The position numbers and the translations under genes are program-made. Shown piece after piece: positions 2,962 through 48,250 of a stretch of DNA of 64,000 bases (position 1 is the first letter of the stretch; the number at the start of each line of letters is the position of its first letter). The notes under the pieces are model-generated. The model saw nothing but the letters and a program-made list of their open reading frames with translations. It searched no databases and was not told the DNA's origin. Source of the DNA: a virus. The stretch covers positions 1 to 64,000 of IMG/VR virus record IMGVR_UViG_3300025010_000009; one strand, 5' to 3'.

Positions 2962-3080
2962 TGAGTAATGTGATTAAAAAGGGACAAGTAGGAGAATTAG
3001 TTGGTATTGGTTAATTTAAAATTAAGGATATACGAGGGGAAGTTTTAGATATTGAGTGGGATGATGGGCGTATAGGAGCA
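2961..3080 (+). pseudogene. 5' part of the following gene, cut by an in-frame TAA
   Basis: A well-placed GGAGG precedes ATG 2961, and this ATG overlaps the TGA of the MuF gene. The frame reads 17 codons (MSNVIKKGQVGELVGIG), then TAA at 3012-3014. It then continues open in the same frame through FKIKDIRGEVLDIEWDDGRI into the 3081 gene. Residues on both sides of the stop look like one small beta-barrel (KOW/SH3-like) segment. So this is either a recently broken N-terminus or a read-through gene. A sequencing error is also possible. Confidence 0.5.
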
Positions 3081-3443
3081 ATGAATAGGGATTCTTTTTT
3101 GCGTTCTGGTGTAATAAAATGGAAAAATTCTCAAACCCCATTTGAAAACGGTTGTGCCCTGGCTCAGGCTGAAATTCAGAATAAACTGGGGAACAGGTTT
3201 GGGAATGATAATTATCAGTTTGAATGGCAAAAATTAGAAACTCAAATTAGGTTTTTAAGAAAACAAATAGAAAATCTATATTCTGGGGCTTCAAAAGAGT
3301 TTACTGTTTCTGGGAATGTGGAAAAACAGCGATTAAATTATATTAAGGCTGATAAATTACAAAAGGAAATGGATGGATTAATTAAACAACGGAATAAACT
3401 TGAAGAGGAAGAAAGGAAAAAGGAAAAATCTTTTAATTTTTAA
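3081..3443 (+). CDS. Coiled-coil small protein with FENG motif (120 aa from this ATG)
   Basis: The reading frame continues from ATG 2961 across a TAA at 3012. ATG 3081 is the first downstream ATG, but its GGAG lies only about 2 nt away, so initiation here is doubtful. Residues 21-36 read PFENGCALAQAEIQNK, the motif shared with the small genes at 11922, 12343 and 15853. The remainder is heptad-rich and charged, predicted coiled coil (KLETQIRFLRKQIENL; LQKEMDGLIKQRNKLEEE). It sits between the MuF and protease/scaffold genes. Function unknown. The protein is A+T-rich and lysine-rich compared with its neighbours. Confidence 0.6.
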   Translation: MNRDSFLRSGVIKWKNSQTPFENGCALAQAEIQNKLGNRFGNDNYQFEWQKLETQIRFLRKQIENLYSGASKEFTVSGNVEKQRLNYIKADKLQKEMDGLIKQRNKLEEEERKKEKSFNF

Positions 3444-3452
3444 GGAAATACC

Positions 3453-4706
3453 ATGCAACATATATTTAATTCATTCCTGGTAATTGATGAGCAGCCAGTA
3501 CCCAAGTGGGAGAAAACTCCTGATGGCTTTCTTCGCTGCCGGGCGCGCATATTAGCAGAGCGGGTAATGCCCTATTCAGTACAAGAGTTTGAGGAAGGTT
3601 CACTTCCTATTAATACCCCTGACGTTATTAATATGTATGTGAGTGGGGAAACTCTTGCTGACCCTGCTGCATTACGTAGTTTGGAGGGCTCCCTGGTAGT
3701 AGCCGGGGATCATGCCTGGTGTGATCTTGAGACGGTTAAACAGCATGCGGTTGGTCACGTAGTGGGCACACCCTATGTTCAGGATGGATATGTATGGTGT
3801 GAACTTCTTATTACTGATCAGAGCACAATTGATAAGGTAGTGAATAAGGAACTTGGGGAAATCTCTGCAGCTTACCTGGCTGAAAGTGTGTTTGAACCTG
3901 GAGAATTTAACGGTCAAGCATATGATGCCCGGCAAGAGCAGTTACAATATAACCATGTTGCAGTCCTTCCTATTGGGCATGGACGTGCAGGCCGCGATGT
4001 TAGAATCATGAACAAAAAAAATCAAGACAACAAAGGAGTAACTACAATGCCTGATGACAAAGACAAAGATGTAAAGGTAATTCGTGAACGACTGTTCCGG
4101 GTAAAGCTGGCTAATACCGGCAAGTTTATTAATGCTGATGAGGAAACGGCCACTGCTGTGGAGGAGGAGTCCAAAGTCAGTGGAGCCAAGCTGGAAACCA
4201 CCATGAGTGAACTTGAGACCAAGAATGCTGAGCTTGCTGAACTCCAGGGCCAGGTTGAGGAACTTAAGGGCCAGCTCAGTGTCTACAAGGAAAAATTGGA
4301 TCAGCTCCTTGCTGAGGAAACCATTGAGCACGCTGCTGAGGGTATGATTGCTGAGGGTGAAGAGGCTGAGGAAATCATTGAAAACTCAGCTATCTTCAAT
4401 GAGAAGGGTGAGGAAGAGCCGGAGGAGAAGAAAAAGGAGTTCATGAACTCCCTGCGCAAACTCCATGGCCCCAAACTTCATACAGCTGTCCTCGGTGCCC
4501 TGGGTGTTAATACTGAGGGGATGTCCCCTGAGGCGATTCGTGGCTCTTTTAAGGCACAGCACCAGATCTGCAATTCCATGAAGGGTAAACGTACTGTTGC
4601 CGGCGCAAAGATGTTCAATAGCGGCATGAAGAGAGAAACCACTGTTGCTGGGGATGGTGTGAATCGTTCTGGCCATCAGCGCCTTGGTTTTGGCGGTAAG
4701 AAATAA
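3453..4706 (+). CDS. Capsid maturation protease with C-terminal scaffold (DUF2213)
   Basis: 417 residues. The N-terminal ~180 residues match DUF2213, a phage prohead-protease-like family. Candidate catalytic segments are GDHAWCD and GEISAAYLAE, the latter resembling the Ser of S78-type proteases. The C-terminal half is acidic and coiled coil (ELETKNAELAELQGQVEELK) like a scaffold, ending in a basic tail with a repeated TVAG motif. The gene lies upstream of cement and capsid genes as expected. A strong internal ribosome-binding site at codon 199 suggests separate production of the scaffold part. Family confident; protease catalysis inferred from position and family. Confidence 0.85.
   Translation: MQHIFNSFLVIDEQPVPKWEKTPDGFLRCRARILAERVMPYSVQEFEEGSLPINTPDVINMYVSGETLADPAALRSLEGSLVVAGDHAWCDLETVKQHAVGHVVGTPYVQDGYVWCELLITDQSTIDKVVNKELGEISAAYLAESVFEPGEFNGQAYDARQEQLQYNHVAVLPIGHGRAGRDVRIMNKKNQDNKGVTTMPDDKDKDVKVIRERLFRVKLANTGKFINADEETATAVEEESKVSGAKLETTMSELETKNAELAELQGQVEELKGQLSVYKEKLDQLLAEETIEHAAEGMIAEGEEAEEIIENSAIFNEKGEEEPEEKKKEFMNSLRKLHGPKLHTAVLGALGVNTEGMSPEAIRGSFKAQHQICNSMKGKRTVAGAKMFNSGMKRETTVAGDGVNRSGHQRLGFGGKK
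4047..4706 (+). CDS. Nested scaffold protein from internal start
   Basis: Inside the DUF2213 gene, AAGGAG lies 8 nt before an in-frame ATG at 4047 (MPDDKDKDVKVIRERL). It would give a 219-residue product holding only the acidic coiled-coil region and basic C-terminus. This matches the nested protease/scaffold arrangement known from lambda C/Nu3. The ribosome-binding site is seen directly; use of the start is inferred. Confidence 0.6.
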   Translation: MPDDKDKDVKVIRERLFRVKLANTGKFINADEETATAVEEESKVSGAKLETTMSELETKNAELAELQGQVEELKGQLSVYKEKLDQLLAEETIEHAAEGMIAEGEEAEEIIENSAIFNEKGEEEPEEKKKEFMNSLRKLHGPKLHTAVLGALGVNTEGMSPEAIRGSFKAQHQICNSMKGKRTVAGAKMFNSGMKRETTVAGDGVNRSGHQRLGFGGKK

Positions 4707-31937: not shown

Positions 31938-33074
31938 TTAATACCTTGGTTTGCGATCTAGTGCTCGTTTGATATCATCTTCCCGGTTATCCCAGGCTCG
32001 TTGGACAAGGCGTTTTAGCTTATCAATTTTACCACTATTCTCAACTGCACGAGTAAGATTTGCCCACCCCTGTTCCCGTAAATCAAATTCAGGGGCATCC
32101 ACCCAGGAGCCCTTGATTTCCCAGACCTTTTGTTCCCGGAGAAAATCCACCATGGACCCGATGTCATCAATACCAAGTTCATTATAGATTGAAAACCGGA
32201 TATTTCTTAATTTGCCGGTGGTACTATTCTTATCCATAATGACTTCAGTATCAGTACCAACCTCACACCCACATTCCTTTCTGATGCCCACCCTAGTCAT
32301 AAATGGTCTGACCTGGCTATAAAAATAAGGGCCTTCCCCACCATTGGTAGTCCACTTGCGTTCAAAAGGTTTGGCATCAATTTTCTGTTTAAGTTGTTGG
32401 GTAATGATGAGTAGACTTTTAGTATTAGCGATAAGACCATTTACATTACGAAGAATCCGGTGAATTATACCAGCTTTGCGCGCAGCATGCGCCTGGGCAA
32501 CTTTATCAGCAGCATCTTTACTCTTAGCGGCTGCAACAGCTTTAAGCAATTCCTTTGCAACCTCCTCATCAGTGGAGAAGCTGTCAAGACTATCAGCAAC
32601 ATAAATAAAGGGTTGCCCCTTCTTTGCCAAGGTAGTGAGGGTGATTTCCATATCCTCAATGGTATTACTGATACCGGATTTATCCTCATTTCCGCGCAAA
32701 TCTGCATAGAGCAGACCACTGGGGGTAATCAACCGGCTTGTTAACGGGGAGAAAAGTTTGTCAAGATTAAAATCGCACCGGCGTTCAACATCATCATAGA
32801 TAAGTAGATAGTTATCAAATCTGGGGTCAAGGCAGGCTTCAGCAAAGGTAGAGAGCACAAGTACTGTTTTACCAGCAGTACTCTTGCCCGGTAGGGTATT
32901 TATTTTGCCCATAGGCCACCCGCCATCAATACGGTCAGTCATAGCCAGGTTAAGCATAGTGCTTCCAGTGGGGAGGAAAAAGCCCTCTTTCCGGGTCTTT
33001 GGCGGCGGTTTGGGCACAGCACGTTGTCTTACCCGTTGCTCAACCTGCTCTACTACTCGTTGTCTTTCAGTCAT
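31938..33074 (-). CDS. RecA/Sak4-like recombinase ATPase
   Basis: Start ATG 33074 (MTERQRVVEQV) overlaps the upstream stop; 378 residues. Walker A LPGKSTAGKTVLVLS, an EAC-type strand after it, Walker B FIYVADSLDSFS, and LLIITQQLKQKI like the RecA L1/L2 region. C-terminal basic (DDIKRALDRKPRY). Likely the strand-exchange protein partnered by the SSB and UvsY-like genes upstream. Confidence 0.8.
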   Translation of the reverse strand: MTERQRVVEQVEQRVRQRAVPKPPPKTRKEGFFLPTGSTMLNLAMTDRIDGGWPMGKINTLPGKSTAGKTVLVLSTFAEACLDPRFDNYLLIYDDVERRCDFNLDKLFSPLTSRLITPSGLLYADLRGNEDKSGISNTIEDMEITLTTLAKKGQPFIYVADSLDSFSTDEEVAKELLKAVAAAKSKDAADKVAQAHAARKAGIIHRILRNVNGLIANTKSLLIITQQLKQKIDAKPFERKWTTNGGEGPYFYSQVRPFMTRVGIRKECGCEVGTDTEVIMDKNSTTGKLRNIRFSIYNELGIDDIGSMVDFLREQKVWEIKGSWVDAPEFDLREQGWANLTRAVENSGKIDKLKRLVQRAWDNREDDIKRALDRKPRY

Positions 33075-33261
33075 AAATTTTCTCCAGACCGTGTTTATCA
33101 ACTAGGTAATGACCCCACTTACCATTCGGTTGTTTGTAGATATTATGTTTTTTAATCAGTTTGTAAAATGTTGGCTTGGTCAGGGTTACATTATACTTCT
33201 CTTTGAGAAAAGCTAATGCATCCTCTGTCCTTACCCAATCTGGTTTTTGTTTTACTGACAT
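33067..33261 (-). CDS. Small winged-helix/excisionase-like DNA-binding protein (64 aa)
   Basis: RTEDALAFLKEKYNVTLTKP then TFYKLIKKHNIYKQPNGKWG is an HTH with a wing as in excisionase/MerR-like proteins. No integrase is present, so it is more likely a regulator of this operon than an excisionase (inference). Just downstream of the tRNA-like gene. Confidence 0.7.
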   Translation of the reverse strand: MSVKQKPDWVRTEDALAFLKEKYNVTLTKPTFYKLIKKHNIYKQPNGKWGHYLVDKHGLEKIYD

Positions 33262-33295
33262 ATTATGCTTTTCTCCTTTATAAAGTATGGGTTAA

Positions 33296-33414
33296 AGGCA
33301 AGGCAGGATTCGAACCTGCACGCTGCTACGGGCCTAACCTGGCTTCTATACTTCTCCCGCTTCTGCGCTCTAGCCGGTATAAAACGATGCGTCTACCAAT
33401 TCCGCCACTTGCCT
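33296..33414 (-). tRNA. Leu-type (class II) tRNA-like gene, atypical
   Basis: On the minus strand AGGCAAG pairs with CTTGCCT (acceptor), the D arm GCGGAATTGGTAGACGC equals that of bacterial tRNA-Leu, and GCAGG-TTCGAAT-CCTGC is a perfect T arm. The middle is about 69 nt instead of about 33, and I find no good 5-bp anticodon stem with a 7-nt loop, so no anticodon is assigned. The acceptor helix extends to 14 perfect base pairs (33289-33302 with 33408-33421). No CCA encoded. It may be an unusual, insertion-bearing or decayed tRNA. Confidence 0.6.
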
Positions 33415-33436
33415 TTAACCCAATATGAAAAGGGTA

Positions 33437-34759
33437 TTACTTACCCTTTGTTAACTGTTCATTCAGGTCATCACAATCTGACCATACTTTGCACTTTTTA
33501 CAGGAATTACTGGTATTACAGTCATATCCATAGCGCAGACCTTCAGGGCAATTGCCTTTTGCACTGGTGCTTCCTTTATCAGGCTCAGGATCATCTGCCG
33601 GTGCGACCTTTTCACACTCATCAGCATTCTCACAGCGTCGGCAACGTTTTTCCTTTCCATAGTCTTCACCGAAAGTAAAACCATAAGGGCATTCATTCCC
33701 AGCTGGTTCAGGATCAGGTTCAGGTTCTTTTTCTGCACGGGTTCTGGTCCGGGTACGGGTTTCAGCAGCAGGTTCCTGATCAGAGGTTTGACGTTCACGG
33801 GTAGCCCGTTCACGTATTCTAGCAGGCTGTTCTTCACGTTGCTGTTCATCTTGTTCATGTTCCTCAGCCACTCCATTATAAATGGCTGCAATCTGGTCAT
33901 AGGTCATTTCTTTGAGAAAAGCATTCAGATCATATCCATGATCAATAGCCCAATCAGGCGGGACCTGCTTAGTTAACTCAAAATCAATCTTCTCAGCTTC
34001 AAAGTAGGTGGCCTTGCCAAAACTCTTTTCGTTATACCGAATATTGGTAACAACACCAGAATCAGGATCAGCAAACCAGGGGTCATCATCAGCAACCTCC
34101 TCAATTTCATCATTAAGGAGGGATCCGAAAAGATGGTAGCTAATATCCTGCAGATACAATTCCTCAGCCTGCGCCTCTGGGTCATACCAGAGGCTGAGTT
34201 CCCGCTGTTTGGCTTTGTATGCCTTGATAGTATCCTCATTAGCATCCCGGTCTTTCATAAGTTCATTCAGATCCTCACAAACCGGGCACCGCCTGCCGAA
34301 TGTCTTGGCCGGGCAGATAACCTTGATTTCCTCGGGGCCAATCTTGTGAATGTAGAAAGTACGCTTGTAAAAGAGGGCGCCGGGCTCGATCTTATCCGTA
34401 TAGTTGAACCCAATTGATTCATAGGGCAGGGTATAGAGACTTACCCGGCATTTTCCTTTCCGGTCAGCCTTTAACGGTAACCAATCAATATCCACATTAC
34501 CACGTGGAATAGCAATATAACTACTCCCCCCTGATTGTTGCTCCCTGGCCTGTTCTCTAGCTCTTTCCCGCATAGCCTGCATTTGCGCTGCTCGATTGGG
34601 TTTTCCAGCCTTGCCTGCTGATCCTGCTGCTCTTGCCATATTACTACCTCCTGATAATTGTTTTTGATATTCTAGCATTTGCGGTTGATCCCCCGGATTT
34701 GCTTTCCAGTAGGACATCCACTCTGATGTACCTGGTGTAAGGTGTTTAAAACCGTTCAT
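33437..34759 (-). CDS. Single-stranded DNA-binding protein (T4 gp32-like) with cysteine repeats
   Basis: 440 residues from ATG 34759. Core with zinc-binding ICPAKTFGRRCPVCEDLNEL, followed by an acidic linker and two C-terminal Cys-rich repeats (ECPYGFTFGEDYGKEKRCRR; NCPEGLRYGYDCNTSNSCKK), as in SSBs of large phages. A second ATG at 34639 has AGGAGG at 7 nt and would give a 400-residue form lacking GFKHLTPGTSEWMSYWKANP. Upstream of the RecA-like gene. Confidence 0.8.
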   Translation of the reverse strand: MNGFKHLTPGTSEWMSYWKANPGDQPQMLEYQKQLSGGSNMARAAGSAGKAGKPNRAAQMQAMRERAREQAREQQSGGSSYIAIPRGNVDIDWLPLKADRKGKCRVSLYTLPYESIGFNYTDKIEPGALFYKRTFYIHKIGPEEIKVICPAKTFGRRCPVCEDLNELMKDRDANEDTIKAYKAKQRELSLWYDPEAQAEELYLQDISYHLFGSLLNDEIEEVADDDPWFADPDSGVVTNIRYNEKSFGKATYFEAEKIDFELTKQVPPDWAIDHGYDLNAFLKEMTYDQIAAIYNGVAEEHEQDEQQREEQPARIRERATRERQTSDQEPAAETRTRTRTRAEKEPEPDPEPAGNECPYGFTFGEDYGKEKRCRRCENADECEKVAPADDPEPDKGSTSAKGNCPEGLRYGYDCNTSNSCKKCKVWSDCDDLNEQLTKGK

Positions 34760-46717: not shown

Positions 46718-48250
46718 CTAGAAATAACTACCTAAATATGGCCTGCCTATCTCCAGACATTGGAGTACAGTTGCTTGTACTCTAGTATCAAACAGGCCTT
46801 CCCGGCCAAGAAGAGGTGCTATACGTACAATTTTTTTCCGCTTCTCCTCAGGGGTCTGATTTATACCATAGGCAGCGGTCACGTGATCCCATTTCCGAAC
46901 GTTCTCACTAAAGTTGCCTGTGCCCAATGACTTGGCCTCCATACCCCCGGCATCACTCTGGGTAGCCCCAACCACACAGCAATCAAAGTCAATACTCATC
47001 TGCCTGACCTGACGCCACGTTTCATTAATCCGGTGCCTGACATCAAGATTGGTAGAGAGTTCAAGCAAATCAAGATAATCAATTACTATAACATGTGGGC
47101 GCCAGCCCCGTCCATTCCAAATATCCAGGATTGATCTTAGCTCAGTAGTATTCATTCTGGACCGGCATACTACCCGAAAATCATTATTTCCAGCCTGCTG
47201 CCGCATCCACTTTTCCCCGGCCAGGATACCCTCACGCCAGGTAAGTGGAGACACAGCTGGGCGTTGTTTATACCAGACAGCGCCTTTAAAATCTCTTGGG
47301 CTATTCTTTTTACATACAGTACAAACACAATACCCACCAGAGTTCGCTACTTCCCAATCAATAGCTTCTCCCTTTTCCTTATCAGTAATAACTCCAAACT
47401 CACAAACCCTTTCTGGACTATCACACTCATCACTCTGATTATGTGCGCAATCAAGTATAGGCACAAGCATGGGCCCACAATACTGGGGATCATAACTGCG
47501 GCCACTAAGTCGTACATGCAGGCGTCTGATCTGTTGTTCTTCTGAGAGGTCACCTATCTGGAACAGGGCAACCCGATTCCTTGCCCTGTGTGCCCGAAAA
47601 GCAAGTTCGTCAAGCCACCAGGTTTTACCTCGTTTTGGCGGGGCCAGCAAGGTCACAAATGTTGCGGGGCTGAATTGATTATTGAAAACTTGACCCAGGG
47701 CTCCAGGATAGGTAAAGAATGGGCTAGAGAAGGATTCAAAAGCACTTTGTATTTTTTCAATACTGGTAAAGGGGTTAAACCCCAGATCCTCAACCAGTTC
47801 CTGCCGCTTATACCCCTCTAGTATTGCCTGTGCTTCTTCAAATTCTCCCTCCTGTACAGCCCGGCCTGCTTCCCTGACGGTTAGACGTGTCCGGCGCTCA
47901 TCAAGGTAGCGTTTACTCTGCTTGAGATAATAATCAGCATCAAATTCATTTGCTCGTTCATACTCCTTGCTCAGTATATCAAGAAGTTCTGCAAGGTCAT
48001 CTGCATGATCGTCATCAATACTATCATCCCGGATATGCTGTTCATAAACATCTTGGAGGAGTTTACCGGGGGCTTTCCCGTGTACTTGGTAATGATCCAG
48101 GCACCACCGGCAGATGACCTTGCTTATATCAGCCTGGAGGAGTTCGGGTTCAAATACGTCCTTAATTGCATTGAGGAATGGCGTACTGACAGCCATTCCT
48201 ATAATGAGCTGGCGTTCCTGCCCGGTATCAATTTTACGCTTAGTTATCAT
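46718..48250 (-). CDS. DnaB-like replicative helicase with zinc-binding insertion
   Basis: 510 residues. Walker A LLAPPKRGKTWWLDELAF, Walker B HVIVIDYLDLLELS, and CVVGATQSDAGG as the following strand, typical of DnaB/gp41 RecA-like cores. Inserted between Walker A and B are Cys clusters (ILDCAHNQSDECDSP, VCEFG and YCVCTVCKKN) suggesting a zinc ribbon not usual for DnaB. Works with the DnaC-like loader at 48510. Confidence 0.85.
   Translation of the reverse strand: MITKRKIDTGQERQLIIGMAVSTPFLNAIKDVFEPELLQADISKVICRWCLDHYQVHGKAPGKLLQDVYEQHIRDDSIDDDHADDLAELLDILSKEYERANEFDADYYLKQSKRYLDERRTRLTVREAGRAVQEGEFEEAQAILEGYKRQELVEDLGFNPFTSIEKIQSAFESFSSPFFTYPGALGQVFNNQFSPATFVTLLAPPKRGKTWWLDELAFRAHRARNRVALFQIGDLSEEQQIRRLHVRLSGRSYDPQYCGPMLVPILDCAHNQSDECDSPERVCEFGVITDKEKGEAIDWEVANSGGYCVCTVCKKNSPRDFKGAVWYKQRPAVSPLTWREGILAGEKWMRQQAGNNDFRVVCRSRMNTTELRSILDIWNGRGWRPHVIVIDYLDLLELSTNLDVRHRINETWRQVRQMSIDFDCCVVGATQSDAGGMEAKSLGTGNFSENVRKWDHVTAAYGINQTPEEKRKKIVRIAPLLGREGLFDTRVQATVLQCLEIGRPYLGSYF

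Follow-up and report, generated by a model that had tools for sequence, protein, structure and literature searches.

The closest described counterparts of the RNA elements reported here are the bacterial class II tRNA-Leu, with which they share the acceptor, the D and T arms and the core residues A14, A15-U48, G18G19 and A20a, and typical members also A73. They differ from these tRNAs in having neither an anticodon arm nor a variable-arm hairpin and in carrying 50-110 or more nt of other structure in that place, and the copy studied in most detail differs further in its U73 and its 15-bp acceptor. tmRNA, which also occurs in phages, is likewise a non-decoding tRNA-like RNA in which pseudoknots replace the anticodon domain, but the elements combine a D stem with a Leu-type frame, lack an mRNA domain or tag, carry hundreds of unrelated inserts and occur in several copies per genome. 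The 3' tRNA-like structures of plant viruses are viral tRNA mimics with pseudoknots and possible recognition by tRNA enzymes; the elements, in contrast, are genes in their own right in dsDNA phages, not the 3' ends of genomes, and their pseudoknot lies in the anticodon domain, not in the acceptor. In the tRNA-scaffold RNAs of biotechnology, the top half of a tRNA bears a foreign structured RNA in the anticodon arm for stability, whereas the elements are natural and phage-borne, and their insert also replaces the variable arm. Finally, tRNA-Sec, tRNA-Pyl and mitochondrial tRNAs depart from the cloverleaf as the elements do, although those tRNAs decode; a review of such non-canonical tRNAs mentions neither pseudoknots nor phages (PMC7609411).

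Searches of the open literature found no such class described, with preprints and subscription journals mostly outside their reach and an earlier description therefore possible, and the phage RNA class is apparently undescribed so far. The reading we favor, with modest confidence, is that the element analyzed here is a non-decoding, tRNA-Leu-framed RNA of a large phage class, which would mature in the manner of a tRNA, whose typical members would probably be leucylated and whose insert would act as an effector.

A tRNA-Leu frame without an anticodon arm

The window, by which we mean the whole 64-kb stretch of DNA analyzed, comes from a virus record of 68,775 bases, and tail sheath, terminase and UvsX-like matches show the virus to be a myovirus. 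The element, its parts and its neighbors are as follows.

33437-34759, minus strand: SSB-like gene, upstream of the element and on the same strand (phrog_1192, E 6e-11)
33288-33422, minus strand: tRNA-framed element (sequence)
33408-33422, minus strand: 5' strand of the extended 15-bp acceptor helix (sequence and inverted-repeat count)
33408-33414, minus strand: canonical 7-bp acceptor, AGGCAAG (sequence)
33389-33405, minus strand: D arm GCGGAATTGGTAGACGC with A14, A15, G18 G19 and A20a, tRNA-Leu type (sequence and Rfam tRNA alignment)
33320-33388, minus strand: 69-nt insert where the anticodon and variable arms would be (ARAGORN negative, deletion test)
33303-33319, minus strand: T arm, GCAGG-TTCGAAT-CCTGC (sequence and Rfam)
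33288-33302, minus strand: 3' strand of the extended acceptor helix (sequence)
33296-33302, minus strand: canonical acceptor 7 nt, CTTGCCT (sequence)
33295, minus strand: discriminator U73 (sequence)
33067-33261, minus strand: 64-aa ORF, downstream and on the same strand, called HTH in an earlier note on this DNA; no PHROG match

Read on the minus strand, 33288-33422 is TGGGTTAA-AGGCAAG-T-G-GCGGAATTGGTAGACGC-(69-nt insert)-GCAGGTTCGAATCCTGC-CTTGCCT-TTAACCCA. The earlier note, made from the letters of the window, had recognized an acceptor, D arm and T arm of the class II tRNA-Leu type, and both the sequence and Rfam RF00005 agree: the D arm is exact, the D stem GCG/CGC is present and the Leu-type core of A14, A15-U48, G18G19 and A20a is kept. 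With a score of 38.5 bits (E 1.5e-4), RF00005 (tRNA) is the sole Rfam match within the 64-kb window; its alignment to the element skips the anticodon region. The insert begins at tRNA position 26 and ends with the U of position 48. In a normal tRNA-Leu the D stem and T stem are about 33 nt apart, and because 69 nt are present here the window copy has the 36-nt excess reported earlier. ARAGORN in its default run called no tRNA in the element, and a 5-bp anticodon stem with a 7-nt loop and U33 is absent from the window copy by ARAGORN with and without introns and by a deletion test. Standard models, suggested earlier as a check, thus yield no normal anticodon arm whether or not introns are allowed, with Rfam matching the tRNA frame only, in line with the original remark that no clear anticodon arm could be seen.

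Where a normal tRNA has a 7-bp acceptor, the window copy has 15 perfect pairs; the earlier description of a 14-bp perfect acceptor was right in its pairing and short in its length, the outermost pair joining 33288 (T) with 33422 (A). This is the longest acceptor in the first set of 115 elements of the class described below, in which only two other members have at least four extra acceptor pairs, and the discriminator is U73 and not the A73 of tRNA-Leu. From its length, it is plausible that the acceptor hinders 5' processing of the window copy, and the extension probably alters processing; taken together, U73 and the 15-bp acceptor suggest that this copy is probably neither charged nor trimmed in the usual way. 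One further 14-bp perfect inverted repeat with a similar spacer, and no more, occurs in the 64 kb: GCAAGGTCATCTGC, at 47991-48123 and within the coding region 46718-48250.

Having a tRNA frame and an expanded insert from which no anticodon arm can be recovered, the window copy belongs to the class, though as an atypical member in its U73, its 15-bp acceptor and an insert without a proven fold. Such features might instead mark a degenerate tRNA pseudogene with a random insertion, and it fits this that the window copy is a singleton with no significant insert fold: RecA-like and clamp-loader searches for relatives of the phage returned identical contigs only, and the element has no relatives beyond these. 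Yet the frame helices and core contacts of the window copy are all perfect, its acceptor exceeds the normal length instead of showing decay, and more than 300 similar elements keep insert structure, which together make decay improbable.

Expanded tRNA-Leu-like elements in phage genomes

BLAST located the two pieces of the frame, unannotated and with an unrelated insert between them, in Bacteroides phage BS-TP2. Scans of viral contigs for the frame returned at least 120 stretches with an over-long gap of 50-80 nt and 109 stretches with a gap of 81-111 nt, and a scan fixing only the acceptor AGTCAGG/CCTGACTAC gave at least 120 further stretches. Pooled, the scans give at least 384 expanded tRNA-Leu-like elements in at least 300 insert families, 247 of which are singletons. 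The 384 elements among the matches listed are 83-211 nt long (median 109), and for 329 elements among the same matches ARAGORN made no call at all. The suggestion that the window element is a tRNA mimic is supported, and such tRNA-framed RNAs prove to form a large class.

The elements are mostly phage-borne and often sit in tRNA arrays, with several copies side by side. Up to nine copies occur in one 14-kb locus (L151), and a canonical tRNA lies within 2 kb of 165 of 361 elements. A search of 84,980 species-level genomes gave only 10 stretches; among these, copies in Sphingobacterium adjoin phage genes (terminase, portal, tape measure, anti-repressor), a prophage context, and no host tRNA with the AGTCAGG frame was present in 395 Bacteroidota genomes. 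When the three neighboring genes on each side were clustered, no candidate for a conserved partner appeared in more than five loci. Separately, an expanded tRNA-Leu-like element that is unannotated in Bacteroides phage BI-TP1 (L124:296-460) has an insert exceeding 100 nt, and similar matches occur in LoVEphage and PV4-TP1; the hosts are cultured Bacteroides and Phocaeicola.

One related contig (L011) encodes a predicted tmRNA and, on the same strand some 160 bases away, a tRNA-framed element (2992-3315 and 3473-3564). Both this proximity and the coupling of a non-decoding tRNA-like domain with pseudoknots in tmRNA itself would suit a cut-down tmRNA. A tmRNA, however, has an alanine-type acceptor, a reading frame and no true D stem, whereas the window frame is Leu-type with a D stem, and its insert is not long enough to accommodate the usual tag and pseudoknots. 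Relaxed ARAGORN tmRNA calls draw on unrelated upstream sequence and give spurious tags only. With an alanine-type, D-stem-less domain also absent, a tmRNA identity was rejected, and we regard such an origin as scarcely credible.

Inserts contain positioned helices and pseudoknots

The inserts are hypervariable across the class, and most are mutually unrelated. Among the first 115 inserts, helices are enriched at one position, with the 3' strand finishing exactly two nt short of the T stem; their mean energy there is -5.16 kcal/mol, compared with -2.88 kcal/mol in dinucleotide shuffles, and neighboring end positions show weaker or no enrichment. This T-stem-adjacent helix was replicated in 234 new family representatives (-4.58 vs -3.05 kcal/mol in shuffles). 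Helices that cross it, forming a pseudoknot, exceed shuffles (Wilcoxon p = 9e-4), and helices nested inside it show no excess (p = 0.68). Pair counting in three aligned families found 3, 7 and 3 compensatory double-changed pairs, counts reached by 6/500, 0/500 and 19/500 shuffles, respectively, and the pseudoknot helix itself covaries in two of the three tested families; the acceptor is nearly invariant in these three covarying families, a pattern partly selected by the search seeds. Class inserts are structured, often as a pseudoknot whose last strand ends two nt before the T stem. Taken without position information, the energy of the best pseudoknot barely exceeds shuffles (mean z -0.94; nested -0.82), and so no single universal fold is claimed. 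Such a fold was considered and set aside, clear signals having come only from position-specific tests and family alignments.

For the insert of the window copy, the following pairings are candidates.

33377-33384, minus strand: 5' strand of candidate stem P1, TTTTATAC, pairing with 33344-33351; alone not significant
33344-33351, minus strand: 3' strand of candidate stem P1, GTATAGAA; alone not significant
33356-33360, minus strand: candidate pseudoknot strand, GCGGG, pairing with 33328-33332; alone not significant
33328-33332, minus strand: candidate pseudoknot strand, CCCGT, pairing with 33356-33360

No internal helix of this insert exceeds shuffles (best helix p = 0.51), and an 8-bp helix arises in 12% of its shuffles. 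The inner stem ACC-GGCT/AGCC-a-GGT proposed in the earlier note can indeed be drawn but does no better than shuffled sequence. The helix two nt before the T stem, with its pseudoknot, is not significant in the window copy, though it is enriched across the class.

The genomic position of the window copy invites another interpretation. The element occupies the gap between two co-directional genes, which had been described as SSB and HTH genes; the first is SSB-like by its PHROG match, while the HTH call for the second finds no match there. No promoter match was found just upstream of the element, so the window copy is probably co-transcribed with ssb. The acceptor-T minihelix is the best-kept part, and across the class co-directional flanking genes are the commonest arrangement. 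All of this is compatible with a punctuation element, in which the tRNA-like fold would serve as a processing or stability signal between phage genes, with RNase P and 3' enzymes recognizing the acceptor-T-arm minihelix and cutting the polycistronic mRNA, and the insert would be free filler. Positioned helices, pseudoknots and compensatory changes, however, would not be maintained in filler, nor would filler give insert families common to phages with different acceptors, as is the case for 14 of 53. Several copies side by side in tRNA arrays are also difficult to square with punctuation, as is the 15-bp window acceptor, a poor one for RNase P. RNase P does not depend on the acceptor sequence, yet 269 of the 384 elements among the matches listed retain AGTCAGG, a figure that the seeding favors. 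On balance, we think punctuation unlikely, though it is the alternative to an effector RNA that we take most seriously.

Hypervariable, pseudoknotted inserts in elements almost confined to phages could also reflect an arms race, with the RNA a decoy or antidote, that is, a tRNA mimic that would occupy host nucleases, defense proteins or RNA-binding toxins. Phage-encoded tRNAs are known to counter tRNA-cleaving defenses such as Septu and retron-Eco7 (PMC13096335). The usual cleavage sites, in the anticodon loop and variable loop, are missing from the elements, which makes a simple substrate decoy odd. A permissive search of 16 loci against other Rfam families yielded tRNA and sub-threshold matches, many of them overlapping ordinary tRNAs, and tRNA aside no family fits the inserts convincingly. 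We rate a decoy as somewhat less likely still than punctuation and continue to prefer a non-decoding RNA whose insert is an effector.

Leucine-identity residues of the frame

Across the class, the frame (acceptor, D arm, T arm and core contacts such as A15-U48) is kept, and the anticodon and variable arms are replaced. In 147 elements seeded on the D and T arms only, U48, the partner of A15, is found in 144 and A73 in 124. By-catch elements matching neither seed (n = 102) have A73 in 83, A14 in 94 and A15-U48 in 72 cases, and A73 is present in 88 of the first set of 115. Among ordinary tRNAs in the same DNA, G15-C48 accounts for 73 of 131 vs 38 for A-U.

According to a review of tRNA identity, the E. 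coli LeuRS depends on A73, A15-U48 and G18G19; it takes no account of the anticodon or the variable arm, and variants that lack both are still charged (PMC9976931). Judged by these residues, typical members (A14, A15-U48, G18G19, A73) would probably be substrates of the host's leucyl-tRNA synthetase. Among expanded frames the Leu type was seen most often, with two scans of at least 120 stretches each vs 67 stretches with a class I D arm. Some members carry non-Leu D arms, and given these and the expanded class I frames, leucylation cannot be the whole story. A strict Leu-only class is ruled out by the class I frames; the Leu frame is preferred, not exclusive.

Introns in class I frames but not in Leu-type elements

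Excess length located at the anticodon would be expected of an ordinary tRNA whose short intron is removed to give a functional product, and the earlier note had offered a tRNA with an intervening sequence as one possibility. In our intron test any single deletion was allowed, and restoration of a canonical anticodon arm was compared with shuffles and with a class I positive control. The complete control scan with the commonest class I D arm gave 67 expanded stretches; the frame is intact in 39 of 55 distinct stretches, and a canonical anticodon arm is restored in 16 of these 39, where 0.5 are expected. These 16 look like genuine tRNAs interrupted by introns of about 34-54 nt, and some class I phage tRNAs do have short introns. 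For 202 Leu-type elements, by comparison, restoration was near chance (11 vs 6.0 expected and 2 vs 1.4 expected). In the window copy a canonical arm is not restored by any single deletion, and the sole solution from ARAGORN with introns allowed sets a Tyr(ATA) anticodon, on a mismatched stem, in a Leu body. An intron is rejected for the window copy and for the Leu-type set, the intervening-sequence proposal is not supported and we consider a spliced, decoding tRNA very improbable as an explanation.

Some further observations concern other expanded tRNA frames. From the control scan, intron-bearing class I tRNA genes are found in L382, L383, L386, L388, L391, L395, L397, L402, L408, L413 and others, several on phage contigs of 340-480 kb; most of the introns interrupt the anticodon stem in its 5' strand (after position 28), and several have in common a hairpin with ACAGCAA next to it on the 3' side. 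Another type of expanded tRNA, at L252:4013-4117 (reverse-complement coordinates) with relatives in L109 and L350, has the acceptor CCATTCT or TCACTCT, the D arm TAGTGTTATGTGG and a long covarying anticodon-side stem, and is conserved in three tRNA arrays. A further family, of structured RNAs that use a class I tRNA frame (L371, L384, L387, L414, L424 and L381), has the acceptor AGAAGTG or GTAACTG, a conserved GGTGAAGGACC-like motif and apparently compensatory stems.

Conclusions

If the elements are effector RNAs in a tRNA-Leu frame, tRNA maturation enzymes would cut the RNA from its transcript and the folded elbow would shield it. Such RNAs could not decode, and the insert would be the working part, with each insert family probably having its own host or phage target; a role in host takeover or counter-defense is our guess. 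The atypical window copy may function as a stable, closed RNA, or as part of the ssb mRNA. A bolder form of this proposal, which we put forward only tentatively and doubt more than we believe, is that phages possess a very large unrecognized set of small structured RNAs built on a common tRNA-Leu chassis, matured by the host, charged with leucine and fitted with interchangeable effector inserts, many per phage, as an arsenal for counter-defense or host takeover.

Cultured carriers, among them Bacteroides phage BS-TP2 and the Sphingobacterium prophages, make the question directly testable. If true, these findings would mean that a diverse class of phage RNAs has been overlooked by tRNA gene finders, which miss the elements because they fail the anticodon test, and would provide a natural precedent for the tRNA scaffold of biotechnology. 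Phages would then be reusing tRNA enzymes to make and charge RNAs that do not decode, and hundreds of candidate effector RNAs would have host targets to be found.
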